NCBI RefSeq assembly: GCF_900103875.1
Contig: NZ_LT629705.1
Coordinates: forward strand, 4,101,001-4,165,000
Source: Pseudomonas arsenicoxydans
Lineage (GTDB): Bacteria; Pseudomonadota; Gammaproteobacteria; Pseudomonadales; Pseudomonadaceae
Length of the DNA stretch: 64,000 nt
Reading direction: 5' to 3'
In this document: positions 25,029-38,627 of the stretch, in pieces
How the letters are laid out: every line of letters starts with the position of its first letter
Position numbering within the stretch: the stretch's first letter is position 1
Program-made: the position numbers and the translations under genes
Notes under the pieces: model-generated
The model's database searches: none
Told to the model about the DNA's origin: nothing
The model's input: the letters and a program-made list of their open reading frames with translations, nothing else

Positions 25029-25118
25029 AAAGATCGCAGCCTCGTTTCACTCGACAGCTCCTACAGGGTTTTGCGTTGATCTGTAGGAGCTGTCGAGTGA
25101 AACGAGGCTGCGATCTTT
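25029..25118. repeat. REPIN-like perfect inverted repeat (38-bp arms)
   Basis: The arms 25029-25066 and 25081-25118 are perfect reverse complements of 38 bp around a 14-bp loop and contain the core CGAGTGAAACGAGGCTGCGA. The same core occurs, in the opposite arm order, at 32591-32689 and 38529-38627. The hairpin lies in the gap after the Gfo/Idh/MocA gene and could act as a terminator. Confidence 0.9.
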
Positions 25119-25173: not shown

Positions 25174-25209
25174 AAGATCACGTCATAACTCGTTATAACA
25201 AGTGATCTT
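25174..25209. promoter_or_regulatory. Nested dyad over the GntR gene promoter/start, candidate operator
   Basis: AAGATCAC (25174-25181) and GTGATCTT (25202-25209) form a perfect 8-bp outer inverted repeat. Inside are ATAAC (25185-25189) and GTTAT (25192-25196). The element ends one base before the GntR-type start codon at 25211, an ideal position for autorepression of the operon. HutC-type regulators bind similar short dyads, but the site assignment is inference. Confidence 0.5.
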
Positions 25210-25210
25210 C

Positions 25211-25978
25211 ATGACCGATAACGTTCTATCCCTCAGCCCGCTTTCCCACAGCAGTATTCCGCTGCACACCCAACTGCGCGATGTGCTGCGCGCCCGTATC
25301 CTCGACGGCGAATACCCGCAAGACAGCCAGATGCCCTCCGAAAGCGAGCTCGGCGCGTTGTTCAAAGTCAGTCGCATCACCGTGCGCCAGGCCTTGGGCG
25401 ATCTGCAAAAGGAAGGGCTGATCTTCAAGATTCATGGCAAGGGCACTTTCGTCGCCAAGCCCAAGACCTTCCAGAACGTCAGCACCCTGCAAGGCCTGGC
25501 CGAGTCCATGACCGGTCGCGGCTACGAGGTAATCAACCGCCTGCGCAGTTTCAAATTCATTGCCGCCGACAAGCTGGTCGCCGAGCGTTTGCACGTCGCC
25601 GAAGGTGAAACCGTGGCGCAGATCAAACGGGTGCGGTTGATCAATCGCGAGCCGATTTCGCTGGAAATCACCTACCTGCCCAAAGCCCTCGGTGAGCGGC
25701 TGGAGAAGGCCGATCTGGTGACCCGCGACATCTTCCTGATCCTTGAGAACGACTGCGGCCTGGCCCTCGGCCACGCCGATCTGGCCATCGACGCGGTGCT
25801 GGCTGACAGCGACCTGACCCAGGCGCTGAACGTCGAACCCGGCTCGCCGATCATGCGCATCGAGCGCCTGACCCACGACGCCAGCGGCCAGCCCGTGGAC
25901 TTCGAACACCTTTACTACCGCGGCGATGCCTTCCAGTACCGCTTGCGGATCGACCGGCAAAAAGGGGATCAGGCATGA
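25211..25978 (+). CDS. GntR-family (HutC/UTRA) transcriptional regulator
   Basis: The product is 255 residues, with a winged helix at residues ~15-75 (PLHTQLRDVLRARILDGEYP, then MPSESELGALFKVSRITVRQ) and a UTRA effector domain at ~95-240 (ISLEITYLPKALGE, PVDFEHLYYRGDAFQYRL). The start at 25211 is preferred to a GTG three codons earlier, which falls within the right arm of the upstream dyad. Its stop overlaps the start of the flavoprotein gene (ATGA), so it heads the eight-gene operon and probably represses it until the imported substrate or a product is sensed. Confidence 0.9.
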   Translation: MTDNVLSLSPLSHSSIPLHTQLRDVLRARILDGEYPQDSQMPSESELGALFKVSRITVRQALGDLQKEGLIFKIHGKGTFVAKPKTFQNVSTLQGLAESMTGRGYEVINRLRSFKFIAADKLVAERLHVAEGETVAQIKRVRLINREPISLEITYLPKALGERLEKADLVTRDIFLILENDCGLALGHADLAIDAVLADSDLTQALNVEPGSPIMRIERLTHDASGQPVDFEHLYYRGDAFQYRLRIDRQKGDQA

Positions 25979-27720
25979 CCCACAGCTCTATCACCAGAAA
26001 CACTCTGGAGCAGGAATACGACATCGTCGTGATCGGCGGCGGCACCGCTGGCCCGATGGCGGCGATCAAGGCCAAGGAACGCAACCGCGATCTGCGCGTG
26101 CTGTTGATCGACAAGGCCAACGTCAAACGCAGCGGCGCGATCAGCATGGGCATGGACGGCCTGAACAACGCGATCATTCCCGGCCACTCGACGCCGGAGC
26201 AGTACACCAAGGAAATCACCATTGCCAACGACGGCATCGTCAATCAGGCGGCGGTCTATGCCTACGCGACCCACAGCTTCGAAACCATCGAGCAACTGGA
26301 CCGCTGGGGCGTCAAGTTCGAGAAGGATGAGACCGGCGACTACGCGGTGAAAAAGGTCCACCACATGGGCGCCTACGTATTGCCGATGCCGGAAGGGCAT
26401 GACATCAAGAAAGTCCTGTACCGCCAGTTGAAGCGGGCGCGGGTCAGCATCACCAATCGCCTGGTCTGCACACGATTGCTGACGGATGAAGAGGGCGCCG
26501 TCAACGGCGTGATGGGCTTCGATTGCCGCACCGCCGACTTCCATGTGATCAAGGCCAAATCCGTGATCCTGTGCTGCGGCGCGGCCGGGCGCCTGGGGCT
26601 GCCAGCCTCCGGCTACCTGATGGGCACCTACGAAAACCCGACCAATGCCGGCGACGGCTATGCCATGGCCTATCACGCCGGGGCCGAGCTTTCGAACCTC
26701 GAATGCTTCCAGATCAACCCTTTGATCAAGGACTACAACGGCCCGGCCTGCGCCTACGTCACCGGCCCGCTGGGCGGCTACACCGCGAACAACAAGGGCG
26801 AGCGCTTCATCGAATGCGACTACTGGAGCGGCCAGATGATGTGGGAGTTCCACCAGGAACTCGAGAGCGGCAACGGCCCTGTGTTCCTCAAGCTCGATCA
26901 CCTGGCCGAGGAAACCATCCAGAACATCGAAGAGATTCTGCACAGCAACGAACGCCCGAGCCGTGGCCAGTTCCACGCCAATCGCGGCACCGATTACCGC
27001 ACGCAAATGGTCGAGATGCACATCTCGGAAATCGGCTTTTGCAGCGGGCATTCGGCGTCCGGCGTGTGGGTCAACGAGAAGGCTGAAACCTCGGTCAAGG
27101 GCTTGTACTCGGCGGGAGACATGGCGGCGGTGCCGCATAACTACATGCTCGGCGCGTTCACGTATGGCTGGTTTGCCGGCACCAATGCGGCGGATTTTGT
27201 CGCTGGACGCGAGTTTTCAGCGGTCGATGCCGAGCAGGTCGAAACGGAAAAACAACGGGTCTACGCACCACTGGACCGAGAACACGGACTGCCGCCCGCA
27301 CAGGTCGAGTACAAGCTGCGGCGTTTTGTGAACGATTACCTGCAACCGCCGAAAGTAACCAAAAAGATGCAGATCGGCCTGCAACGCTTCAGCGATATCC
27401 AGCGCGATCTCGATCAGATCAAGGCCCACAACGCCCACGAACTGATGCGTGCCATGGAAGTCAGCATGATCCGCGACTGCGCCGAAATGGCTGCCCGCGC
27501 GTCCTTGTTCCGTGCCGAAAGTCGTTGGGGGCTTTACCACTATCGCGTCGATCACCCGCAACGCAACGACAGCGACTGGTTCTGCCATTGCCACCTGAAG
27601 AAGGGTGAGAACGGCTTGATGACCAGCTTCAAGAAAGCCGTCGAGCCTTACATCATTCCGCTCGATGCCGAAGAAATGCTGGCCTATGACCGGCTGCGGG
27701 TCGGTGCCTTCGCGGCCTGA
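25975..27720 (+). CDS. AprA/fumarate-reductase-like FAD flavoprotein
   Basis: The 581-residue protein has an N-terminal dinucleotide fold (YDIVVIGGGTAGPMAAI, residues 15-31), KANVKRSGAISMGMDGLNN, a capping domain mid-protein, and a C-terminal FAD segment (SGVWVNEKAETSVKGLYSAG, then LGAFTYGWFAGTNAA), followed by the helical domain of succinate dehydrogenase/fumarate reductase/APS reductase flavoproteins. The next gene encodes an 8-Cys ferredoxin, mirroring the aprA-aprB pair of APS reductase. In this setting a redox reaction on an imported, possibly sulfur-containing, compound is likely. No sulfate-reduction genes are near, so true APS reductase activity is doubtful. The start overlaps the GntR stop (ATGA). 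Confidence 0.85.
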   Translation: MTHSSITRNTLEQEYDIVVIGGGTAGPMAAIKAKERNRDLRVLLIDKANVKRSGAISMGMDGLNNAIIPGHSTPEQYTKEITIANDGIVNQAAVYAYATHSFETIEQLDRWGVKFEKDETGDYAVKKVHHMGAYVLPMPEGHDIKKVLYRQLKRARVSITNRLVCTRLLTDEEGAVNGVMGFDCRTADFHVIKAKSVILCCGAAGRLGLPASGYLMGTYENPTNAGDGYAMAYHAGAELSNLECFQINPLIKDYNGPACAYVTGPLGGYTANNKGERFIECDYWSGQMMWEFHQELESGNGPVFLKLDHLAEETIQNIEEILHSNERPSRGQFHANRGTDYRTQMVEMHISEIGFCSGHSASGVWVNEKAETSVKGLYSAGDMAAVPHNYMLGAFTYGWFAGTNAADFVAGREFSAVDAEQVETEKQRVYAPLDREHGLPPAQVEYKLRRFVNDYLQPPKVTKKMQIGLQRFSDIQRDLDQIKAHNAHELMRAMEVSMIRDCAEMAARASLFRAESRWGLYHYRVDHPQRNDSDWFCHCHLKKGENGLMTSFKKAVEPYIIPLDAEEMLAYDRLRVGAFAA

Positions 27721-27745
27721 GCATCACTAAAAGAGAGACCGCCAA

Positions 27746-27991
27746 ATGGCCTATCAACCCCAGGAAATCTTCTTCCGCTCCAACGCACCGGTCACGGTCG
27801 ATGAAGACCTTTGCATCGCCCATAAAGGCTGCACCGTGTGTGTCGACGTCTGCCCGATGGACCTGCTGGCGATCAACCCGGCCACGCAGAAAGCCTACAT
27901 GGCCTTCGATGAATGCTGGTACTGCATGCCCTGCGAAAAGGACTGCCCGACAGGCGCCGTGAAAGTCGAAATCCCGTATTTGCTTCGTTGA
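27746..27991 (+). CDS. Ferredoxin with two [4Fe-4S] clusters (AprB-like)
   Basis: The 81-residue protein has eight cysteines in two groups: Cys23, 29, 32, 36 (spacing x5, x2, x3) and Cys57, 60, 63, 67 (x2, x2, x3, in CWYCMPCEKDC). This matches two [4Fe-4S] clusters, and the wider first spacing resembles the beta subunit of APS reductase. It lies 25 bp after the flavoprotein gene and presumably feeds it electrons or takes them away as a cytosolic heterodimer partner. The short length lacks the C-terminal tail that classical AprB wraps around AprA. Confidence 0.9.
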   Translation: MAYQPQEIFFRSNAPVTVDEDLCIAHKGCTVCVDVCPMDLLAINPATQKAYMAFDECWYCMPCEKDCPTGAVKVEIPYLLR

Positions 27992-28003
27992 AATGCAATC
28001 CAA

Positions 28004-28028
28004 TGTGGGAGCGGGCTTGCCCGCGATG
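28004..28028. repeat. Single REP element
   Basis: A 25-bp imperfect palindrome, beginning TGTGGGAGCGGGCTTGCCCG, lies between the ferredoxin and substrate-binding-protein genes. The same family occurs as inverted pairs at 29588-29679 and 47471-47563. Confidence 0.85.
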
Positions 28029-28158
28029 ACGTCCGTCCAGACAACATAAAACGCCATCCGGCAACACCGGACGCTTGCTTCAAAACACCCCTCGTTTCCC
28101 ACCACGCCCTGATCGTGGCGGAGACGAACATCCTATAAATGATTCGAGGGGATTCACC

Positions 28159-29577
28159 ATGTCTTTGCCAACATCGCTGCGTGCAGCATTTGCCGGTCTG
28201 GTACTGGCTTCATTCACCTTGTCGGCCTCGGCCGAAACCATCCGTATCGCCATCGGCACCCAGGACACCACGATCAATTGCGCCGCCGGCGGCTTGTTGA
28301 TTCGCGAGCTTGGTCTGCTCGACAAATACCTGCCCCACGACGGCCCCTACAAGGACGCCAACTATGAAGTGGAGTGGAAAAACTTCACCAGCGGCGCGCC
28401 CCTGACCAATGAGATGGTCGCTGGCAAACTCGACTTCGGCGCCATGGCCGATTTCCCCGGTTCGTTCAACGGTGTGGCTTTCGAGACCGCCGGCAAGCAC
28501 AGCCTGTTTATCAGCGTGTTGTCGGGCAGCATCAAGGGCAGCGGTAACGGCATCGTGGTGCCGAGCGCCTCGGGCGTGCAGTCGCTGGCTGAGTTGAAAG
28601 GCAAGACCATTTCCGTGCCGTTCGCGTCCACTGCCCACGGCATGTTGTTGCGGGCCGTGGCGGCGCAAGGCTGGGATCCGCTCAAAGACGTGAACATCAT
28701 CGCCCAACCGCCGGAAGTGGCCGGTTCCGCGTTGCAAGCCGGGAAGATCGACGCCCACGCCGACTTCGTGCCGTTCGCCGAACTGTTCCCGAGCCGAGGT
28801 TTCGCACGCAAGATTTATGACGGTTCCCAGGCCAACACACCGACCTTCCATGGCGCCCTGGTCGATCAGGCCTATGCGAAGAAGTACCCGGAAATCGTCG
28901 TCGCCTACCTGCGAGCGAGCATCGAGGCCAATCAACTGCTGGCGGCCGAGCCGGAGAAATACAGCGAGCTGATTGCCAAAGTCTCCGGGGTCGACGCCGA
29001 GGTCAATTACCTGTTCCACGGTCCACTGGGCGTGCAAACCCGCGACCTGAGCTGGAAGCCGGAATACCGCCAGGCCGTCGGCACCGCCATCGATACGCTC
29101 AAGCTGTTGAAGAAGGCGGATCGCGGCCTGGACCTGAATACCTTCATCGACGACCAGTATATCCGCGCCGCGTTCAAGGCCTCGAACCTGGACTACACCG
29201 CGCAATTGGCCAACTACGGGCAGACGCCGCTCAACGCGGTGGATGCTACGAGCGGCAAAGCCATCACCGATTTCAGTCATGTGGCGGAAATCTGGGTGCG
29301 CGGTGAACCGAAAGTCCGTCAATACGCTTCGGCCGAATCGGCATTCACCGCATTGGCCGGCTTGAAGCAGGAAGGCAAAAGCATTCGCGCGGTGTATGCC
29401 CAGGCGAGCGACAGCGGGATCAAGTTGCTGGCCGACCAGGCGTGGTTTGCCAGTGATGCGAAAGGCCGCTTGAGTGCATTCCTGCTCAAAGGCCAGGCCC
29501 AGCAATTCGCCACGGCCCAGGGTGGCAAAGTCTTCGACTTCACCGACGCCACCACCCAGGCCGTCGCCACCCGCTAA
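28159..29577 (+). CDS. ABC transporter periplasmic substrate-binding protein (SsuA/TauA/NMT1-like)
   Basis: The 472-residue protein starts with a clear signal peptide (MSLPTSLRAAFAGLVLASFT, cleavage after SASA near residue 25). The mature part has ETIRIAIGTQDTTINCAAGG, KLDFGAMADFPGSFNG and GKTISVPFASTAHGMLLRA, the pattern of periplasmic proteins for nitrate, sulfonate, taurine or pyrimidine precursors. It is 100 residues or more longer than typical SsuA (about 320 residues), with an extra C-terminal region. GAGGGG precedes the ATG at 28159; an upstream in-frame start adds 28 non-signal residues. With the permease and ATPase downstream it forms a complete importer. Confidence 0.9.
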   Translation: MSLPTSLRAAFAGLVLASFTLSASAETIRIAIGTQDTTINCAAGGLLIRELGLLDKYLPHDGPYKDANYEVEWKNFTSGAPLTNEMVAGKLDFGAMADFPGSFNGVAFETAGKHSLFISVLSGSIKGSGNGIVVPSASGVQSLAELKGKTISVPFASTAHGMLLRAVAAQGWDPLKDVNIIAQPPEVAGSALQAGKIDAHADFVPFAELFPSRGFARKIYDGSQANTPTFHGALVDQAYAKKYPEIVVAYLRASIEANQLLAAEPEKYSELIAKVSGVDAEVNYLFHGPLGVQTRDLSWKPEYRQAVGTAIDTLKLLKKADRGLDLNTFIDDQYIRAAFKASNLDYTAQLANYGQTPLNAVDATSGKAITDFSHVAEIWVRGEPKVRQYASAESAFTALAGLKQEGKSIRAVYAQASDSGIKLLADQAWFASDAKGRLSAFLLKGQAQQFATAQGGKVFDFTDATTQAVATR

Positions 29578-29587
29578 GCGCAAATCC

Positions 29588-29679
29588 CTGTGGGAGCGGG
29601 CTTGCCCGCGATGGGGCCAGTTCAGGCGTCATCAGTGTTGACTGGCACACAGCAATCGCGGGCAAGCCCACTCCCACAG
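29588..29679. repeat. REPIN (inverted REP pair) inside the operon
   Basis: CTGTGGGAGCGGGCTTGCCC at the left end and GGGCAAGCCCACTCCCACAG at the right are two inverted REPs spaced by about 40 bp. It lies between the substrate-binding protein and permease genes and could stabilise the upstream mRNA or lower downstream expression. Confidence 0.9.
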
Positions 29680-29703
29680 TGATCTCGGTTGAGAGGAAGA
29701 ATT

Positions 29704-30486
29704 GTGTACGGATCATATTTGCGCTGGATACCAAGAGCCGCCTCGCTGCTGCTCTGCCTTTTATTCTGGCAACTCGCCGCCAGCCACCACTGGAACCTCG
29801 GCCTGGTGACCTTCGCCAACGTGCCAACGCCGCTGGCGGTTATCCAGGCAGCCTTGGGCCTGGGCGATTCCGGCAAGCTGGCCCAACACCTGAGCAGCAG
29901 CCTCGGCCGCGTCTTCGCCGGTTACCTGGCGGCGATGATCATCGGCATCGTTTTGGGCCTGGCCATCGGTCGCTCGAAATGGGCCGAAGATTTATTGCTG
30001 CCACCGCTGGAAGTCCTGCGCCCGATTCCGGCCGTCGCCTGGATTCCCCTGGCCATCCTGATGTTTCCGTCCTCGGAATTGTCGATGGTTTTCATCACTT
30101 TCACGGGCGCGCTGTTCCCGATCCTGCTCAACACCGTGCACGGGGTCGAAGGCGTCGACCCGCGCCTGATCGCCTCGGCGAAAAGCCTCGGGGCAGGGCG
30201 CCGGGCGATTCTGTGGGAAGTGATTGTGCCGGGCGCCGCGCCGAGCATCATCACGGGCCTAGCCATCGGCATGGGCACCTCGTGGTTCTGCCTGGTGACC
30301 GCCGAAATGATCTCCGGCCAGTACGGCATCGGCTATTACACCTGGGAGTCCTACACCCTCCAGAACTACGCCGACATCGTCGTCGGCATGTTGCTGATCG
30401 GTGTCCTCGGGATGGGCAGCAGCCTACTGATCAAACGTCTCGGCGGATTGTTCACGCCGTGGCACCGACCACGAGGAAAAGCCTGA
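29704..30486 (+). CDS. ABC transporter permease (SsuC/TauC-like)
   Basis: The 260-residue inner-membrane protein has about six hydrophobic helices and the cytoplasmic EAA loop (ASAKSLGAGRRAILWEVIVPGA, near residues 160-180) that contacts the ATPase. The family is the nitrate/sulfonate/taurine BPD transporter permease. The GTG at 29704 is preferred, as GAGAGGAAGA lies just upstream; a TTG at 29689 would overlap that ribosome site. Its stop overlaps the ATPase start (TGATG). Confidence 0.9.
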   Translation: MYGSYLRWIPRAASLLLCLLFWQLAASHHWNLGLVTFANVPTPLAVIQAALGLGDSGKLAQHLSSSLGRVFAGYLAAMIIGIVLGLAIGRSKWAEDLLLPPLEVLRPIPAVAWIPLAILMFPSSELSMVFITFTGALFPILLNTVHGVEGVDPRLIASAKSLGAGRRAILWEVIVPGAAPSIITGLAIGMGTSWFCLVTAEMISGQYGIGYYTWESYTLQNYADIVVGMLLIGVLGMGSSLLIKRLGGLFTPWHRPRGKA

Positions 30487-31334
30487 TGAGCATGATGCAA
30501 ACCCCTGAAGGGCGGATCGACATCCGCCAACTGTCCATCGTCCTCGGCGAAGCGCAGCACGCCTTCGAAGCCGTGCAGGGCCTCGACTGCCAGATCGAAC
30601 CGGGGCAATTCGTGTGCATTCTCGGGCCGTCCGGTTGCGGCAAATCGACCTTGCTCGGCGCGCTGGCCGGGCACTTGCAGCCGAGCGCCGGCAGCCTGAA
30701 AGTCGATGGCGCGCATGTCTGCGGCCCGTCGCCGCAACGGGGCATGGTGTTCCAGCACCACACCCTGTTCCCGTGGCGAACCGTGCGCGACAACGTGGCG
30801 TTCGGCTTGAAAATGCGTGGCATCGGCAAGGTCGAACGCCACCAGGCCGCCGACGAAATACTCGCACTGGTGGGCCTCGAAGGCTTCGCCGAGCGCTGGC
30901 CGGATCAGCTCTCCGGTGGCATGCAGCAACGGGTGGAAATCGCCCGGGTGCTGGTCAACCGTCCGCGCCTGTTGCTGATGGACGAGCCCTTCGGCGCCCT
31001 CGATGCGCTGACCCGGCTGAACATGCAGGAGTTGCTGCTGGACATCTGGACACGGATCCGCACCACCGTGGTGTTCGTCACCCACGACATCGACGAAGCG
31101 CTGTTCCTCGCCGACCGCCTGTTGGTCATGAGTTCCCGGCCCGGTCGAATCATCGAGGACTTGCGCCTGGACTTCCCTCGGCCACGCACCACCGAATTGG
31201 TGACCCGCCATGAGTTTTCCCGCTTGAAACGTCATTGCCTCGAACTACTGCGTCACGAAGACGGTCGGCAGTTGCCACGCCTGAACCCTCTCGGACTTCC
31301 TCCTGAAAACAAACTGCCGCGATTTGCCCTATGA
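30486..31334 (+). CDS. ABC transporter ATP-binding protein (SsuB/TauB-like)
   Basis: The 282-residue protein has Walker A GPSGCGKST (47-55), Q-loop FQHHTLFPW (89-97), signature LSGGMQQR (142-149), Walker B LLLMDEP (162-168) and the H-loop VTHDIDEA. It energises the importer encoded immediately upstream; the closest families are sulfonate, taurine and nitrate ATPases. Both ends overlap neighbouring genes (TGATG upstream, ATGA downstream), so expression is translationally coupled. Confidence 0.93.
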   Translation: MSMMQTPEGRIDIRQLSIVLGEAQHAFEAVQGLDCQIEPGQFVCILGPSGCGKSTLLGALAGHLQPSAGSLKVDGAHVCGPSPQRGMVFQHHTLFPWRTVRDNVAFGLKMRGIGKVERHQAADEILALVGLEGFAERWPDQLSGGMQQRVEIARVLVNRPRLLLMDEPFGALDALTRLNMQELLLDIWTRIRTTVVFVTHDIDEALFLADRLLVMSSRPGRIIEDLRLDFPRPRTTELVTRHEFSRLKRHCLELLRHEDGRQLPRLNPLGLPPENKLPRFAL

Positions 31335-32293
31335 CCTCTCTATTCGATGTAACCGACAACGACGACATTCTCGCCCTGCAACCGCGCCTGACCGACGACG
31401 ACCCCGGCGTGCGCCGGATTGCCCTGATCGAACTGGCCGACCTTGAAGAACCGGACGGTCTGCTGTGGCTGGTGAATCGCCTGGCTGAAGACCCGACCGA
31501 AGACGTCCGCGCCGAGGCCGCCCGCCTGCTTGAAGCCTGGGAAGACACGCCCGTGGTCGAGGCGCTGTGCCAGGCCCTGACCGATCCCTCCTTGGCCGTG
31601 CAAGCGGCCGCCGCGCAAAGCCTGAGCCTGCTCAAGAGCGAGGCGGCGGGCAGGGTGGTTCTGCCGTGGACCGGGCATGCCGAGGTCAACGTGCGCATCG
31701 CCGCGTTCCGGGCGCTACGCGAACTGCGCTTCCCCGATGCCGCGGGCGCTGCTGCAGCGGCACTGAACGATGAAAACGCCAGCGTCCGTCGCGAAGCCGT
31801 GGGCGTACTCGGCTGGCTCAAGCAGCTTGATGCCTTGCCGGCCCTGGCCAAACTGGCCGGCGACGATCCGGACACCGAAGTCCGCCGCGCCGCCACCGGG
31901 GCCTTGGGCCTGGCGTCCGACGCTCAAGTGCTGCCGGCGTTGCGCCAGGCGTTGCAGGACCCGGCCTGGCAAGTGCGCGAAGAAGCCGCCACCACCCTGG
32001 GCAAAGTCGGCCATGCTGACGCCGGTCCCGCCCTGGTCGAAGCCTTGAGCGACGATTACTGGCAAGTCCGCCTGCGCGCCACTCGCAGCCTCGGTCGTTT
32101 GCGCTACATCCCGGCGCTCGACGCGCTGATCGACACCCTCGGCCATCGCATCAGCAACCTGCGCAAGGAAGCTGCGTTGGCCCTTGGCGAATTGAACGAT
32201 AAAGGCGCCATCGCGCCCTTGCAGGCCGCGCAAGACGACGGCGACCCGGAAGTGCGCAAAGCCGTGCGCATCGCGTTGAGTCAACTGCAATGA
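31331..32293 (+). CDS. HEAT-repeat (PBS lyase-type) protein
   Basis: The 320-residue protein is built almost entirely of about nine to ten 30-residue helical repeats with the E-Z/PBS-lyase HEAT pattern (DDPGVRRIALIELADL, DPTEDVRAEAARLLEAW, DPEVRKAVRIALSQL). It has no signal peptide, no membrane segment and no catalytic motif. Such proteins are scaffolds, and some (CpcE type) act as lyases or maturation factors. It overlaps the ATPase and DUF971 genes by 4 bp each (ATGA), so a scaffold or assembly role for the flavoprotein-ferredoxin enzyme is plausible; that is inference. Confidence 0.88.
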   Translation: MTSLFDVTDNDDILALQPRLTDDDPGVRRIALIELADLEEPDGLLWLVNRLAEDPTEDVRAEAARLLEAWEDTPVVEALCQALTDPSLAVQAAAAQSLSLLKSEAAGRVVLPWTGHAEVNVRIAAFRALRELRFPDAAGAAAAALNDENASVRREAVGVLGWLKQLDALPALAKLAGDDPDTEVRRAATGALGLASDAQVLPALRQALQDPAWQVREEAATTLGKVGHADAGPALVEALSDDYWQVRLRATRSLGRLRYIPALDALIDTLGHRISNLRKEAALALGELNDKGAIAPLQAAQDDGDPEVRKAVRIALSQLQ

Positions 32294-32565
32294 ACCCGGT
32301 AGCGGTGGGCAACTCCCAAAGCAAGCAGCAGCTGCGATTGAGCTGGCCGGATGGGCGAGAACAGTGGCTGGATCATGTTGAGTTGCGACGTCAGTGCCCG
32401 TGCTCGCAGTGCCGGGCGTTTCGGCTGCAAGGGCTGACGGTAAAAGTCGACGAGCGCATCCGCGTGATTGAACTCAACCAACAGGGCTACGGCCTGCAAC
32501 TGATCTTCAGCGACGGCCATGAGCGCGGCATCTACCCATGGCCCTACCTGGCTGACCTAACCTGA
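32290..32565 (+). CDS. DUF971-family protein
   Basis: The 91-residue protein consists of a single DUF971 domain: LRLSWPDGREQWLDHVELRR, RQCPCSQCRAF (Cys36, 38, 41), and a C-terminal GIYPWPYL. The same domain is fused to the Fe-S carrier HCF101/ApbC in some proteins and to gamma-butyrobetaine hydroxylase in others, where it binds metal. Being the last gene of an operon with a [4Fe-4S] ferredoxin, it may help cluster assembly. The ATG overlaps the HEAT gene stop. Confidence 0.9.
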   Translation: MNPVAVGNSQSKQQLRLSWPDGREQWLDHVELRRQCPCSQCRAFRLQGLTVKVDERIRVIELNQQGYGLQLIFSDGHERGIYPWPYLADLT

Positions 32566-32590: not shown

Positions 32591-32689
32591 GTAGGAGCTG
32601 TCGAGTGAAACGAGGCTGCGATCTTTTGATCTTGCTTTTAAACATCAAAGTCAAAAGATCGCAGCCTCGTTTCACTCGACAGCTCCTAC
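32591..32689. repeat. REPIN-like repeat, 99 bp, copy upstream of the mutasome operon
   Basis: Perfect 39-bp arms (32591-32629 and 32651-32689) surround a 21-bp loop. The unit is repeated with one substitution at 38529-38627 and shares its arm core with 25029-25118. Decayed partial ends (CAGCTCCTAC variants) follow up to about 32723. It probably also terminates the DUF971 transcript. Confidence 0.92.
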
Positions 32690-32766
32690 ACAGCTCCTAC
32701 CAGCTCCTACACAGCTTCTACACCTGCACGTCGTCTGCAAGTCCTTGTCAGGAAAAAGCCGAAAGA

Positions 32767-32778
32767 GTACAAATGTAC
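32767..32778. promoter_or_regulatory. GTAC-N4-GTAC palindrome at the lexA2 start, candidate LexA2 operator
   Basis: GTACAAATGTAC is a 12-bp dyad whose centre includes the lexA2 start codon. The LexA2 repressors associated with imuA-imuB-dnaE2 in Pseudomonas recognise a GTAC-N4-GTGC-like box instead of the usual CTGTATATAT-type LexA box, and this site matches that pattern. Binding here would block initiation of the whole operon and give autoregulation. Confidence 0.7.
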
Positions 32779-33390
32779 TCCATGACGACTTTAACTCCCC
32801 GCCGTACCGCCATCCTGACTTTTATCCGTGATCGAATCGCGGAGCACGGTCAGTCCCCCAGCCTCGCTGAAATCAGCGAGGCGTTCGGTTTTGCCTCTCG
32901 CAGCGTGGCGCGCAAGCATGTGCTGGCGCTGACCGAGGCCGGTTTCATCGAGGTCAATGCGCATCAGGCCCGGGGCATCCGTTTGCTCGGGCAGCCCGCG
33001 CGGCCCGAGCTGCTGGACGTCCCGGTTCTCGGTCGGGTGGCGGCGGGTGCACCCATCGGCGCCGATGCCGAGGTGCACAGCCGCTTGCTGCTGGACCCGT
33101 CGATCTTCTCGCGGGTGCCCGATTACATGCTGCGGGTGCAAGGCGACTCGATGATCGAGGACGGCATTCTCGACGGCGACCTGGTGGGTGTGCACCGCAA
33201 TCCCGAGGCGCTCAACGGCCAGATCGTCGTGGCGCGGCTCGACGGCGAAGTCACCATCAAGCGTTTCGAGCGCAACGGCGACGTGGTCCGGTTACTGCCA
33301 CGCAACCCGGCCTACCAGCCGATCATCGTCGAGGCTAATCAGGACCTGGCCATCGAAGGAGTGTTCTGCGGTCTGGTGAGGCAAGGGTGA
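32773..33390 (+). CDS. lexA2: LexA2 SOS repressor of the mutasome operon
   Basis: The 205-residue protein has an N-terminal winged helix (residues ~5-70: TLTPRRTAILTFIRDRIAEH, SLAEISEAFGF, SVARKHVLAL) and a C-terminal S24 autoprotease domain with the Ala91-Gly92 cleavage site (RVAAGAP), Ser126 (GDSMIEDG) and Lys163 (TIKRF). RecA filaments trigger self-cleavage after DNA damage. It heads the lexA2-imuA-imuB-dnaE2 operon. The ATG at 32773 lies inside the operator palindrome; an alternative ATG at 32782 would give 202 residues. The stop overlaps the imuA start. Confidence 0.93.
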   Translation: MYSMTTLTPRRTAILTFIRDRIAEHGQSPSLAEISEAFGFASRSVARKHVLALTEAGFIEVNAHQARGIRLLGQPARPELLDVPVLGRVAAGAPIGADAEVHSRLLLDPSIFSRVPDYMLRVQGDSMIEDGILDGDLVGVHRNPEALNGQIVVARLDGEVTIKRFERNGDVVRLLPRNPAYQPIIVEANQDLAIEGVFCGLVRQG

Positions 33391-34007
33391 TGGGCGCCGT
33401 CGTTGCGTTGGATACGCTGTTCAATGGCGGCCAGGTCTGGAAGGGCCGGCCTGCGCCACCAGCGGTCAGCCCGCAACCCACCGGGCATGCCGCGCTGGAC
33501 GCGGCGTTGCCCACCGGCGGATGGCCGGAAGCGGCGCTGACTGAAATCCTCCTGGCCGGGCAGGGCGTTGGCGAGCTGCAACTGGTGTGGCCAGCGCTGG
33601 CGCGCCTGTCGGCGGCGGGTGAACGCATCGTGCTGGTGGCGCCGCCTTACGTACCCTATCCGCAGGCCTGGCAGAACGCCGGGGTCGATCTGCGCCAGTT
33701 GTCGATCATCCAGGCCAGCGAACGCGATGCCCTGTGGGCGGCGGAACAATGCCTGCGTTCGGGCAGTTGCGGCGCGGTGCTGTGCTGGCCGCACAAGGCC
33801 GATGACCGGGCGTTGCGCCGTTTGCAGGTGGCGGCGGAAACCGGTTCGACCCTGGCGTTCGCCTATCGCTCGATCCATGAAGCGATCAACCCGTCACCAG
33901 CTGCGCTGCGCATCGCCATCGATGCCAGGCCCGCGCAGTTGCGCGTGCTCAAGTGCCGGGGCGGATTGGCGCGTTCGGCACCGATTGCCTTCCCCGTGGG
34001 GCATTGA
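33390..34007 (+). CDS. imuA: ImuA, translesion synthesis accessory protein
   Basis: The 205-residue protein is related to RecA/SulA-like folds: GGWPEAALTEILLAGQGVGE (around residues 42-61), LVWPALARLSAAGERIVLVA, and GAVLCWPHKADDRALRRLQ. A complete Walker A is not evident. ImuA works with ImuB and the error-prone polymerase DnaE2 in SOS-induced mutagenesis and binds RecA and ImuB in related bacteria. The ATG at 33390 overlaps the lexA2 stop (TGATG); a GTG one codon earlier is also possible. imuB starts 7 bp after its stop. Confidence 0.92.
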   Translation: MGAVVALDTLFNGGQVWKGRPAPPAVSPQPTGHAALDAALPTGGWPEAALTEILLAGQGVGELQLVWPALARLSAAGERIVLVAPPYVPYPQAWQNAGVDLRQLSIIQASERDALWAAEQCLRSGSCGAVLCWPHKADDRALRRLQVAAETGSTLAFAYRSIHEAINPSPAALRIAIDARPAQLRVLKCRGGLARSAPIAFPVGH

Positions 34008-34014
34008 GGTTGCC

Positions 34015-35430
34015 ATGCGCTGGGTGTGCATTCTTTTTCCGCAATTGGCGCTGGACGCGGTGCTGCGTCAGCGTCCCGATCCCGATGAGCCACTGGCGCT
34101 GCTGACCGGCCCGGCCCAGCGTCGGGTGCTGCAAGCGGTGAACGCTTCGGCGCGGGCGCTGGGTTTGCGTGCGGGGCAGTCGATGACCGCCGCGCAAGCC
34201 TTGAGCAAAGCCTTTGCCACGGCTGAATACGACGTCGCCGAGATCGAGCACTGGCAACAGTTTCTGGCGGCGTGGGCCTATCGTTTCAGCTCGCAGGTCA
34301 GCGTCCATTACCCGCGTGCCGTGGTGTTTGAAATCGAATCCAGCTTGGGACTGTTCGGGTCCTGGCCGCAGTTCGAGGCACGATTGCGGACCGAACTCGG
34401 CGAGCTGGGCTTTCGTCATCGGATCGTCGCCGCGCCCAACCCGGTGGCGGCGCGGGTATTGGCCAACGCTTATGACGGTCTGGTGGTGCCGGACAACGAG
34501 GCCTTGCAACACCATCTCGGGCAGTTGCCGGTCGACCGGATTGCTCTGGAGCCAGCGGTGGCCACGGCGTTGTCACGCATGGGGCTGCGCACCCTGGGCC
34601 AGGTGCAGGCGTTGCCGCGTCATAGCCTGGCGCGGCGTTTCGAGGCTCAGGTGCTCAAGCACCTGGACGCCTTGTTCGGTGAGCGTCGGCTGGCGCTGGC
34701 GTTCTACCTGCCGCCGGACCGTTTTGATGTGCGCATCGAACTCAATTTCGACGTGCAATCGCATCAGGCGCTGCTGTTTCCATTACGCCGGTTGGCGGGC
34801 GATCTGTCGGCCTTCCTCTGTGGCCGGGACAGCGGCGTGCAACGGTTCGACCTGCATCTTGAACACGCAGGCCTGCCGGACACAGTGATCAAGGTCGGCC
34901 TGCTCAGCGCCGAGCGTGACCCGGCGATGCTCTTCGAACTGGCCCGGGGACGACTGGAGCAGGTTCAAGTCGAAGCCCCGGTACGCGGTTTTCGGCTGCG
35001 CGCCGAGGACCTGCCAAGCTTTGTCCCGCAGCGTCAGGAACTGTTCGACGACCGCCCGCAGCAGTCCTTGCCCTGGGAGCAACTGCGTGAACGCTTGCGC
35101 GCGCGGCTCGGGGATGAAGCGGTGCATGGCTTGCGCTTCCAGGCCGACCACCGGCCCGAGTGCGCGTGGCAGGCGCGGGTCGACAATCAGCTCTGTGCGG
35201 GGTTGGCGGGTGTGCAGCGTCCGGGCTGGTTGCTGACGCAGCCACTGGCGATCCACGAAGGGTCGGCGCGCATTCTCATGGGGCCGGAGCGCATCGAATC
35301 CGGCTGGTGGGACGGCGATGATGTGCGTCGCGACTACTACCTGGTCGAAACCCGTTCCGGCCAGCAGGGCTGGGCCTATCGTGCGGTGGGTGAGGGCGGT
35401 CCGCTGTGGCTGCAAGGCTGGTTCGCATGA
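34015..35430 (+). CDS. imuB: ImuB, catalytically inactive Y-family polymerase homologue
   Basis: The 471-residue protein has a Y-family (DinB/UmuC-like) fold: [41 protein letters not shown], then the little-finger region and a long C-terminal extension ending [19 protein letters not shown]. The catalytic carboxylates of active Y-family polymerases are not present at the N-terminal position (FPQLALD instead of a DxD-type motif), as is usual for ImuB. It serves as the hub linking the beta clamp, ImuA and DnaE2. GAGG precedes the ATG at 34015, and the stop overlaps the dnaE2 start (ATGA). Confidence 0.93.
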
Positions 35431-38400
35431 GCATCGGCTATGCCGAGTTGCACTGCCTGTCGAACTTCAGTTTCCAGCGCGGTGCTTCCAGTGCCCTGGA
35501 ACTGTTTCAACGGGCAAAACAGCACGGCTATCACGCGCTGGCGATCACCGATGAATGCACCCTGGCCGGCATCGTCCGTGCCTGGCAAGCCGCAAAGTCG
35601 GTGGAGCTGCCACTGATCATCGGCAGCGAAATACGCATCGAGGACGGTCCGAAACTGGTGCTGCTGGTGGAGAACCTCGAGGGTTACCAGACCCTGTGTC
35701 GGCTGATTACCCGAGCGCGGCGGCGCACGCAAAAAGGCCAGTATCAGGTCCTGCGCGAAGACTTCAACGAACCCATGGCAGGACTGCTGGCGTTGTGGGT
35801 GCCGGACGCTGTCGATGATTTTGCAAGCGGCCACTGGTTGAAACAGGCTTTCGCCGAGCGCTTGTGGCTGGCGGTGCAGTTGCATCACGGCCAGGACGAC
35901 CGCGGGCGACTGGACGCTTTGCTGACCCTGGCCAGGGAACTGCGGATTCCAGCAGTAGCCAGCGGCGATGTGCACATGCACACCCGTGGCCGACGCGCCT
36001 TGCAGGACACCATGACCGCGATCCGCCATCACCTGCCGGTGGCCGAGGCCGGGTTGCGTCTTCATCCCAATGGCGAGCGGCATGTGCGCAGCCTTGAGGC
36101 GCTGCAATCGATTTATCCGCCCACGCTGCTCGCTGAAACCTTGACCATCGCCCGGCGCTGCACGTTCGACCTCGGCCAGTTGCGTTATCAATATCCCCGC
36201 GAACTGGTGCCGCAAGGCCAGACGGCCACGTCCTGGCTGCGCCATCTGACTGACGAGGGGATTGCGTGGCGCTGGCCAAAAGGCCCGCAAGCCAAGGTGC
36301 TGGTGCAGATCGACAAGGAACTGCAACTGATCGCCGAGCTGGGCTATGAAAGCTACTTCCTGACCGTGCATGACATTGTGCGATTTGCCCGTGAGCAACA
36401 CATCCTGTGTCAGGGCCGTGGTTCAGCGGCCAACTCGGCGGTGTGTTTTGCCTTGGGCATCACGGAAATCGATCCGGATCGCACCACGCTGCTGTTCGAA
36501 CGTTTTCTCTCCAAAGAGCGCAACGAGCCGCCGGACATCGACGTCGATTTCGAACATGAACGCCGCGAGGAAGTCTTGCAGTACGTGTTCCAGCGCTATG
36601 GCCGAACCCGCGCGGCGCTGACGGCGGTGGTCAGCACGTATCACGCGGCCGGCGCGGTGCGTGACGTGGCCAAGGCCTTGGGTTTGCCGCCGGACCAGAT
36701 CAATGCGCTGGCCGATTGCTGCGGTCACTGGAGTGATGCAACGCCGCCGGTGGAGCGCCTGGTCGAGGGCGGTTTCGACCCCGAGAGCCCGGTGCTGCGT
36801 CGGGTGCTGAGCCTGACGGGGCAACTGATCGGTTTTCCCCGGCACCTGTCCCAGCACCCCGGCGGCTTCGTGATTTCCGAGCAGCCGCTGGACAGCCTGG
36901 TGCCGGTGGAAAACGCCGCCATGGCCGAACGCACCATCATTCAGTGGGACAAGGACGATCTGGATGCGGTGGGACTGCTCAAGGTGGATATTCTGGCACT
37001 GGGCATGCTCAGCGCGATTCGTCGTTGCTTTGATCTGCTGCGCCGTCATCGCCATCTCGACCTGAGCCTGGCAACGATTCCGTCCGAAGACCCGGATACC
37101 TACGACATGATCGGCCGTGCCGACACCATCGGCGTGTTCCAGATCGAATCCCGGGCGCAGATGTCGATGCTGCCCAGACTCAAGCCGCGCACGTTTTACG
37201 ATCTGGTGATCGAGGTGGCCATCGTCCGTCCGGGGCCGATTCAGGGCGGAATGGTGCATCCGTACCTGCGCCGGCGAAACAAGCAAGAACCCGAGGTTTA
37301 CCCGTCTCCGGCCCTGGAAGTCGTGCTCAAACGTACCTTGGGCGTGCCGCTGTTCCAGGAACAAGTGATGCAGATTGCGATTGTCGCCGCCGACTACAGC
37401 CCCGGCGAGGCCGATCAGTTACGCCGTTCCATGGCGGCCTGGAAGCGTCACGGTGGATTGGAGCCGCACAAGGACCGCCTGGCCGCCGGCATGAAGAAAA
37501 ATGGCTACACCCCGGAGTTCGCCGCACAGATCTTCGAACAGATCAAAGGCTTTGGCAGCTACGGTTTTCCTGAGTCCCACGCCGCCAGTTTCGCCTTGCT
37601 GACCTACGCCAGTTGCTGGCTGAAATGCCACGAACCGGCGGCCTTCGCCTGTGCGCTGATCAACAGCTGGCCGATGGGGTTCTACAGCCCGGACCAGATC
37701 CTGCAGGACGCGCGCCGGCATCATTTGCAGATCCGCCCGGTGGACGTGCGCGCCAGTGACTGGGATTGCAGTCTGGAACCGATCAGCGGCGCGCAGCCGG
37801 CGATTCGCATGGGGCTGCGGATGATCAAGGGCTTTCGCGAGGACGATGCCCGGCGCATCGAAGCGGCGAGGGCGAAGGGGATATTTGTCGACATCGCCGA
37901 CTTGGGCGAACGGGCGCAACTCGATGCCCGTGCCCAGGAGCAACTGGCCGATGCCGGTGCGCTGCGCGGCCTGGCCGGTGACCGCCATCGGGCGCGCTGG
38001 GAAGTGGCGGGGGTGCACAAGCAACTGGGCTTGTTCGCCGGCCTGCCGAGTCAGGAAGAGGACGCGGTGTCGCTGCCCAAACCCACTGTGGGCGAGGACC
38101 TGCTGGCCGATTACAACAGTGTCGGCACCACCCTCGGCCCGCATCCGCTGGCCTTGCTGCGCGGTGAATTGAAAGCCAGGCGTTGCCGCAGTTCGAAAGA
38201 ACTGATGGAGGTCGAGCACGGGCGCCCGGTGAGCGTCGCCGGGCTGGTCACCGGGCGACAACGGCCGGGCACCGCCAGCGGCGTGACGTTCGTCACCCTT
38301 GAAGATGAGTTCGGCAACGTCAACGTCATTGTCTGGCGTGACCTGGCAGAACGGCAGCGCAAGGTGCTGGTCGGCTCGCAACTGCTCAAGGTCGATGGCC

Positions 38401-38504
38401 GCTGGGAAAAGGAAGGCGAAGTGCGCCACCTCATCGCCGGGCGCTTGAGCGACCTGAGTCCTCTGCTCGATGGCATCAGCGTGCGCAGCCGCGACTTCCA
38501 CTAA
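35427..38504 (+). CDS. dnaE2: Error-prone DNA polymerase DnaE2
   Basis: The 1025-residue C-family polymerase begins with a PHP domain ([20 protein letters not shown], residues 1-~200). The polymerase core follows: [21 protein letters not shown], the catalytic PDIDVDF near residue 370, and [20 protein letters not shown] near 710. It ends in an OB-fold region ([18 protein letters not shown]). DnaE2 copies damaged templates together with ImuA and ImuB. The ATG at 35427 overlaps the imuB stop; an in-frame start seven codons earlier lies inside imuB. A hairpin repeat follows the stop. Confidence 0.95.
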
Positions 38505-38528: not shown

Positions 38529-38627
38529 GTAGGAGCTGTCGAGTGAAACGAGGCTGCGATCTTTTGATCTTGCTTTTAAACATCAAAGTCAAAAGATCGA
38601 AGCCTCGTTTCACTCGACAGCTCCTAC
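38529..38627. repeat. REPIN-like repeat, 99 bp, copy downstream of the mutasome operon
   Basis: This unit is identical to 32591-32689 except for one base in the right arm (GATCGAAGCC versus GATCGCAGCC) and lies in the same orientation, so the two copies are direct repeats around the lexA2-imuA-imuB-dnaE2 operon. Partial TAGGAGCTGTG units precede it (38511-38528). The rest of the 326-bp gap to 38830 holds a possible -10 box CATAAT (38698-38703) for the following gene; no further gene is seen. Confidence 0.92.

Follow-up and report, generated by a model that had tools for sequence, protein, structure and literature searches.

We analysed a stretch of 64,000 nucleotides from Pseudomonas arsenicoxydans (contig NZ_LT629705.1, positions 4,101,001 to 4,165,000; hereafter the window), part of a one-contig genome of 6.5 Mb, in which a sequence-only reading had pointed out an eight-gene operon combining an AprA-like flavoprotein, a ferredoxin and an ATP-binding cassette (ABC) importer. 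The eight genes are real and all lie on the plus strand in the order claimed, with families assigned by Pfam and NCBIfam. They encode a GntR/UTRA regulator of the HutC type (gntR, 25211..25978; Pfam GntR and UTRA); a flavin adenine dinucleotide (FAD) flavoprotein of 581 aa (Flav, 25975..27720; FAD_binding_2/Succ_DH_flav_C, NF006131) resembling AprA and the archaeal 3'-phosphoadenylylsulfate (PAPS) reductase MtPAPSR; an AprB-like 2x[4Fe-4S] ferredoxin of 81 aa with eight Cys (Fdx, 27746..27991); a periplasmic solute-binding protein (SBP, 28159..29577) of the NMT1 type, with an SsuA/TauA fold (~residues 25-335) and a C-terminal NosL-like domain (~335-472); an ABC permease of the SsuC/TauC/NtrB type (~29704..30486, starting at GTG 29704 or TTG 29689), which carries Pfam BPD_transp_1 and matches the NtrB, SsuC and TauC models, all below their cut-offs; an ABC ATPase of the TauB/SsuB type (30486..31334; NF008421, 264.4 bits, below the cut-off 357); a HEAT-repeat protein (gene 7, 31331..32293; HEAT_2), which matches positions 620-866 of NF010374, the HEAT part of a fused Flav-HEAT family; and a DUF971/GBBH-like_N protein with a CxCxxC motif (gene 8, 32290..32565; PF06155, 74 bits, cut-off 22.8).

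The earlier description of overlaps at most junctions is only just right: stop and start codons overlap at four of the seven (ATGA three times, TGATG once), and the remaining three are gaps of 25, 167 and ~126 bases. Both long gaps contain repeats resembling repetitive extragenic palindromic (REP) elements, namely, one in the ferredoxin-SBP gap (28005..28028, plus strand) and an inverted pair in the SBP-permease gap (29590..29677), which may cap mRNA segments. Directly upstream of gntR lies a near-palindromic candidate operator, CTCGTTATAACAAG (25189..25202), and since it overlaps GTG 25202, this upstream start of gntR is less likely.

Conservation of the gene set and a candidate operator

We read three sets of loci. 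Among 398 genomes drawn from the phylum, 21 harbor the flavoprotein (own genome included; 10 of 212 genera), and stretches of 19 kb were fetched around the 20 non-own relatives. According to tblastn, all 20 of these loci have the ferredoxin gene at most 0.5 kb from Flav and HEAT and DUF971 at most 8 kb away; the three importer genes (SBP, permease, ATPase) fall inside the same 8-kb limit in 18/20. The named-genome set holds the best 80 of at least 515 confirmed relatives, 51 of these 80 being from Bradyrhizobium and several lying on incomplete contigs; here we found the ferredoxin in 77 loci, HEAT in 79, DUF971 in 73, SBP in 72, permease in 75 and ATPase in 76, the three loci without ferredoxin all belonging to Hyphomicrobium. 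The window flavoprotein is 98% identical to one labelled Pseudomonas brassicacearum. Relatives were also found in 51 plasmid records, among them records from Acinetobacter, Acidithiobacillus caldus, three cyanobacterial genera and two actinobacterial genera, and 19 loci from these were taken for reading (ferredoxin in 19/19, HEAT in 17/19, DUF971 in 9/19, Mrp/NBP35 in 4/19). The set is thus conserved together, as a proposed check for synteny had asked, and the operon is a real, widely conserved module.

Two variations concern the last two genes. In each of the four cyanobacterial loci that we read, the Fe-S carrier Mrp/NBP35, and not DUF971, adjoins HEAT; we considered Mrp as a carrier of a DUF971 domain, and ruled this out since the four copies scanned contain none. 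In the two plasmid loci that have no separate HEAT gene, from Tsukamurella (L133) and Nonomuraea (L134), HEAT and flavoprotein make up a single continuous reading frame, with Pfam HEAT_2 at residues 747-825 and 715-790, respectively. The fusions score 1568 and 1586 bits against NF010374 (PRK13800; cut-off 1196), the Flav-HEAT fusion family, whereas HEAT and flavoprotein are separate genes in the window. These two variations support HEAT and DUF971 as putative partners or maturation proteins of the enzyme; the sequence-only reading had proposed assembly or maturation.

Of the 18 regions read upstream of gntR, 12 have the near-palindrome (consensus CTTGTYATRACAAG) directly ahead of the gene; these include the window and, with one mismatch, L029. 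The motif has diverged in L036 and in the A. baumannii locus L128 (two mismatches in the latter), and was not seen upstream of gntR in L129, L133, L134 and L138. In the window it is the sole match at up to one mismatch (0.08 expected). When ten genomes were scanned at the same stringency, eight had a single perfect copy, in each case at this operon, G328 had a one-mismatch copy there and G170 had none; in all ten, one-mismatch sites elsewhere were no more frequent than for the reversed pattern used as control. The loci that carry the motif also served to derive it, so that only its uniqueness, and not its occurrence at them, counts as independent evidence. GntR is probably a dedicated local regulator, which, judging from the sequences, would bind the near-palindrome.

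An orthologue of the operon in Acinetobacter baumannii (AUO97_RS16340-16365 = A1S_1717-1722) has been studied genetically under the name 'GntR-ABC efflux system' (PMC13104710, 2026), and the flavoprotein already belongs to a curated NCBI family, NF006131, so the earlier view that no named system has this gene content does not hold. The published system comprises six genes in the same order (gntR-flavoprotein-ferredoxin-SBP-permease-ATPase), which form one transcript and belong to the OxyR regulon; the chrA-gntR gap is 241 bp both there and in L128, and the GntR orthologue binds its own upstream region and activates the operon. Mutants of gntR and of the permease gene show lower survival of H2O2 and in macrophages, less motility and virulence, and minimum inhibitory concentrations (MICs) 2-4-fold lower for some drugs, mostly aminoglycosides; complementation restored H2O2 survival and MICs (PMC13104710). 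The paper differs from our description in its efflux pump label; HEAT and DUF971 are not named, and sulfonate, sulfur and sulfate have no occurrence in its text. The eight-gene set is not due to chance, since it is conserved over three phyla and its first six genes form one transcript in Acinetobacter. The A. baumannii flavoprotein is ~80% identical to that of the window, and in L128 the HEAT and DUF971 genes directly follow the ATPase gene. The OxyR link reportedly goes back to Juttukonda et al. 2018. Elsewhere, the ferredoxin gene is among the genes seen only in biofilm according to passages of PMC3758355, and the A. baumannii ATPase gene is among the biofilm expression values of PMC9603859. 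A ferredoxin-family gene and an SBP gene of a different organism, at best possible relatives, appear in PMC13108547. The terms of the system are absent from PMC8557817, and no paper among those listed in our searches of the open-licence PMC literature assigns it a biochemical role.

Enzyme subunits and importer

The flavoprotein scores 1139.8 bits over residues 7-578 against NF006131 (PRK08275; cut-off 587), and is a member of this family, which, like NF010374, bears the generic name fumarate reductase/succinate dehydrogenase. Its nearest relatives are AprA and MtPAPSR; however, it stays below the cut-offs of TIGR02061 (AprA; 192 bits vs 641.75) and NF005331 (PAPS reductase; 296 vs 557). In an unrooted FastTree tree of 23 sequences, in which we identified the own genome's SdhA and NadB ourselves and not by annotation, a single clade (0.999) unites the 12 Flav sequences and leaves out SdhA, NadB and AprA+MtPAPSR. 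The motifs GCRGEGG and QFHPT of SdhA are TGPLGG and QINPL in the window flavoprotein, the substrate Arg/His not being kept. These motifs of SdhA/FrdA presumably supply the catalytic Arg and the substrate-binding His/Arg. The sequence-only reading had named grouping with fumarate-type dehydrogenases as a possible objection; the protein falls outside SdhA/NadB and lacks the fumarate reductase Arg, and an identity as fumarate reductase/succinate dehydrogenase is ruled out by these residues and the tree placement.

Comparison with AprA shows what has been kept and what has been lost. The sulfate-contacting Asn74 and His398 correspond to N64 and H359 in 20/20 flavoproteins, and the position of His446 is kept as well, whereas Trp234 has become Y219 and Arg265 L250, again in 20/20; Asn74, Trp234, Arg265 and His398 are all kept in 8/8 AprA. 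The column of the adenine-clamping Arg317 is a gap in 12/12 family flavoproteins and an Arg in 8/8 AprA and MtPAPSR sequences. Because Arg265, Trp234 and Arg317 are lost, the flavoprotein is neither a fumarate reductase nor a reductase of adenylylsulfate (APS). MtPAPSR, from Methanothermococcus thermolithotrophicus (8a8o; PMC10322725), is the closest solved alpha subunit over the whole length and also has a small ferredoxin-like beta subunit (104 aa), but it still has the Trp, Arg265 and Arg317 positions, all lost here, and importer, HEAT and DUF971 are not described in the section read of that paper. Since the model of the flavoprotein has a mean predicted local distance difference test score (pLDDT) of 62.6 and a poor middle part, we took no active-site geometry from it.

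The eight Cys and Trp58 of the ferredoxin are invariant in 19/19 aligned sequences, and Trp58 aligns with the AprB Trp of 3gyx_B, described as the electron-transferring residue (passages of PMC2211403). Although the ferredoxin matches AprB and the MtPAPSR beta subunit, archaeal polyferredoxins score higher than AprB; therefore its likeness to AprB rests on the Trp and on the partner as well. Flav and Fdx thus share with AprAB an FAD alpha subunit paired with a 2x[4Fe-4S] beta subunit, but here the beta subunit is the ferredoxin domain only (81 vs 150-166 aa), and the operon differs.

The importer is of the SsuABC/TauABC kind in its SBP fold, its sulfonate cradle and its permease and ATPase types. 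Foldseek's eight best solved chains for the SBP are all SsuA or TauA, and Gln30 and Gly61 of the TauA sulfonate cradle correspond to Q35 and G79, invariant in 22/22 SBPs (Q35 mapped via the model offset only, G79 via the HMMER alignment). It differs in that the amine-binding Glu106 and Asp205 of TauA are N130 and H231 in 22/22, in its extra C-terminal domain and in its partner enzyme, which is no oxygenase. The SBP also scores below the NCBIfam cut-offs for SsuA (126.8 vs 163.5) and TauA (90 vs 304.25).

Sulfur-linked neighbours and proposed function

Clusters from alphaproteobacteria add genes for a ferredoxin-NADP (nicotinamide adenine dinucleotide phosphate) reductase, a Crp/Fnr regulator and a YeiH-type putative sulfate exporter. 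The reductase gene is found in 9/20 phylum, 61/80 named and 1/19 plasmid loci. YeiH lies within 10 kb of Flav in 6/21 genomes (five of them Bradyrhizobium; ~25 YeiH genes in total), compared with ~0.1 genome expected by chance by our own estimate, and occurs in 6/29 non-Bradyrhizobium named loci (Afipia, Chelativorans, Mesorhizobium, Labrenzia, Thalassococcus and Actibacterium), abutting the reductase gene in three of these six. Neither gene was found in the nine gamma/beta loci L028-L036, nor in the Acinetobacter, Cupriavidus and Paraburkholderia loci. On two Pseudanabaena plasmids and one Leptolyngbya plasmid, flavoprotein-ferredoxin-HEAT-Mrp is followed by YeiH and TauE/SafE, and in Aquabacterium TauE/SafE stands directly upstream of gntR; TauE/SafE is weak evidence, there being 2-12 copies in each of the 21 genomes, and was counted only where it abuts the module, as in the cyanobacteria and Aquabacterium. 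In three Hyphomicrobium loci, ssu genes diverge from flavoprotein-HEAT (L106 ssuD, 656 bits, cut-off 510); on two Sinorhizobium plasmids, sulfate and sulfonate ABC genes and a TauD-family gene adjoin the module; and genes for an LLM oxidoreductase, a 3-mercaptopropionate dioxygenase and a rhodanese lie downstream in Paraburkholderia. A sulfur-linked neighbour is present in 10 of the 19 plasmid loci and absent in 9, a count made from annotations plus one tblastn match (an unannotated Nonomuraea locus) and without a random-locus control, with L128, whose TSUP transporter is 6 kb away, scored as having none.

From the gene set, its conservation, the families, the residues and the neighbours we infer the class of substrate, the reductive direction and sulfite as the product. 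The reading we favour, to which we give about an even chance, is that the operon encodes a system, induced by its substrate, for taking up a small sulfur oxyanion and cleaving it, with ferredoxin-driven release of sulfite; the substrate would most likely be an organosulfonate or a sulfonate-like anion without a cationic amine. This agrees with the earlier proposal that an importer supplies a small organic, possibly sulfur-containing anion to a redox enzyme of the AprAB kind. GntR/UTRA would sense the substrate at its single operator, and SBP, permease and ATPase would form the importer. Flavoprotein and ferredoxin would form a two-subunit enzyme, in which electrons from NADPH would reach the two [4Fe-4S] clusters via the ferredoxin-NADP reductase and be passed on to FAD by the conserved ferredoxin Trp. 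The substrate would be held by Asn64 and His359, and the reduced FAD would attack its sulfur to form a flavin-sulfite adduct, from which sulfite would be released for cysteine synthesis, any surplus being exported by YeiH or TauE/SafE where present. HEAT would be a bound partner of the flavoprotein, and DUF971 (Mrp/NBP35 in cyanobacteria) would mature the Fe-S clusters of the enzyme.

Several observations weigh against this reading and point to a copper or redox role, in which the NosL-like domain of the SBP, Sco, PCuAC, TlpA and cytochrome c would handle copper or periplasmic thiols, the cytoplasmic flavoprotein/ferredoxin would serve that task or oxidative-stress repair, and the sulfur neighbours would be incidental. 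The last 130 residues of the SBP resemble NosL in four of the six SBPs scanned, namely, the window fragment, L130, L128 and L041 (21.8, 21.7, 19.6 and 20.2 bits), but always below the Pfam gathering cut-off of 24; no match was found in those of L126 and L133, and the window domain contains neither Cys nor Met. Likewise, Sco occurs in 12/29 non-Bradyrhizobium named loci (12/80), ten of which also have PCuAC (10/80), and in mapped cases these stand directly downstream of the ATPase gene, followed by a cytochrome c gene, some loci adding a TlpA-like protein; however, neither had a match in the 20 phylum or the 19 plasmid loci. The OxyR/H2O2 link of the A. baumannii operon would suit such a role, a serious rival although we consider it unlikely. 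Slightly less unlikely is an importer serving a fumarate-reductase-type enzyme that reduces or oxidises a C-C bond of a non-sulfur anion, such as a carboxylate, a nitrate- or bicarbonate-like anion or a phosphonate; it is disfavoured by the loss of the SdhA/FrdA substrate Arg and His, by the tree, and by the sulfur exporters and ssu/tau neighbours of part of the loci.

The enzyme might instead act oxidatively on the same sulfur substrate, by dehydrogenation or sulfite oxidation with the ferredoxin as acceptor, sulfite or sulfate leaving by later steps. AprAB is held to run in reverse in sulfur oxidisers (passages of PMC2211403), and YeiH is labelled a putative sulfate exporter, but linkage to ferredoxin-NADP reductase suits electron supply better, even if that reductase is reversible too; we regard this direction as a shade more doubtful than the copper role. 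An efflux pump for drugs or reactive oxygen species, as published, would account for the lowered H2O2 survival and MICs of the mutants, which complementation restored. Nevertheless, a periplasmic SBP with a TauC/SsuC-type permease and a TauB-type ATPase is an importer architecture, and the text of PMC13104710 contains neither 'transport assay' nor 'accumulation'; because the SBP and importer families are present, we hold efflux to be highly improbable. Least credible of all is a genuine APS/PAPS reductase of assimilatory sulfate reduction: AprA and MtPAPSR are indeed the best relatives, but the Leu and Tyr replacements of Arg265 and Trp234, the missing Arg317 and the two sub-threshold family scores led us to rule out this identity.

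A larger and distinctly more speculative possibility, less likely than not, is that aerobic and phototrophic bacteria possess a widespread, oxygen-independent desulfonating complex derived from AprAB, assisted by HEAT as partner and by a factor that matures its Fe-S clusters, in which ferredoxin electrons cut sulfite from imported small sulfonates. Oxygenases such as SsuD and TauD are otherwise credited with the assimilation of sulfonates by aerobes. Such O2-free release of sulfite would be a new step of the sulfur cycle and a reuse of AprAB-type enzymes outside sulfate reduction. The chemistry of the module, an AprAB-kind variant coupled to a sulfonate-type importer, was nowhere described in the literature we searched. 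The module is fairly common and carried on many plasmids. Its annotations go no further than fumarate reductase and, for a human pathogen, efflux pump; the published H2O2 phenotype of A. baumannii might be read alternatively as lost sulfur import, not lost efflux.

Further genes and repeats around the module

Some alphaproteobacterial clusters have a conserved membrane protein of ~222-230 aa between permease and ATPase (L110, 16091-16783; L126, 14613-15281), for which the copy scanned gave no Pfam family above cut-off (weak MerT). Cyanobacterial clusters with an unusually long LysR regulator were also seen (L130, 6661-8673, minus strand; annotated too in L132 and L149). The C-terminal half of the L130 protein has a weak SBP-like match to NMT1_2 (20.8 bits, below cut-off), as if the regulator sensed the transported ligand itself. 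A GNAT gene and an amidase gene adjoin the module in both Nostoc (L131) and Methylocystis (L137), the two amidases being 51% identical; since that of Tardiphaga is only ~30% identical, no shared substrate is proposed. On the A. caldus plasmid pTcM1 (L129, 10574-14032), genes for FdxA and a 1153-aa protein with a Pyr_redox_2 domain come directly after Flav-Fdx-HEAT.

In the window itself, a 33-base repeat forms three inverted pairs (25032-25115, 32591-32689 and 38529-38627), two of which flank the operon on both sides; it looks like a dispersed intergenic repeat. The open reading frames downstream (32605-38504), recognised by eye, look like a LexA, ImuA, ImuB and DnaE2 mutagenesis cassette.

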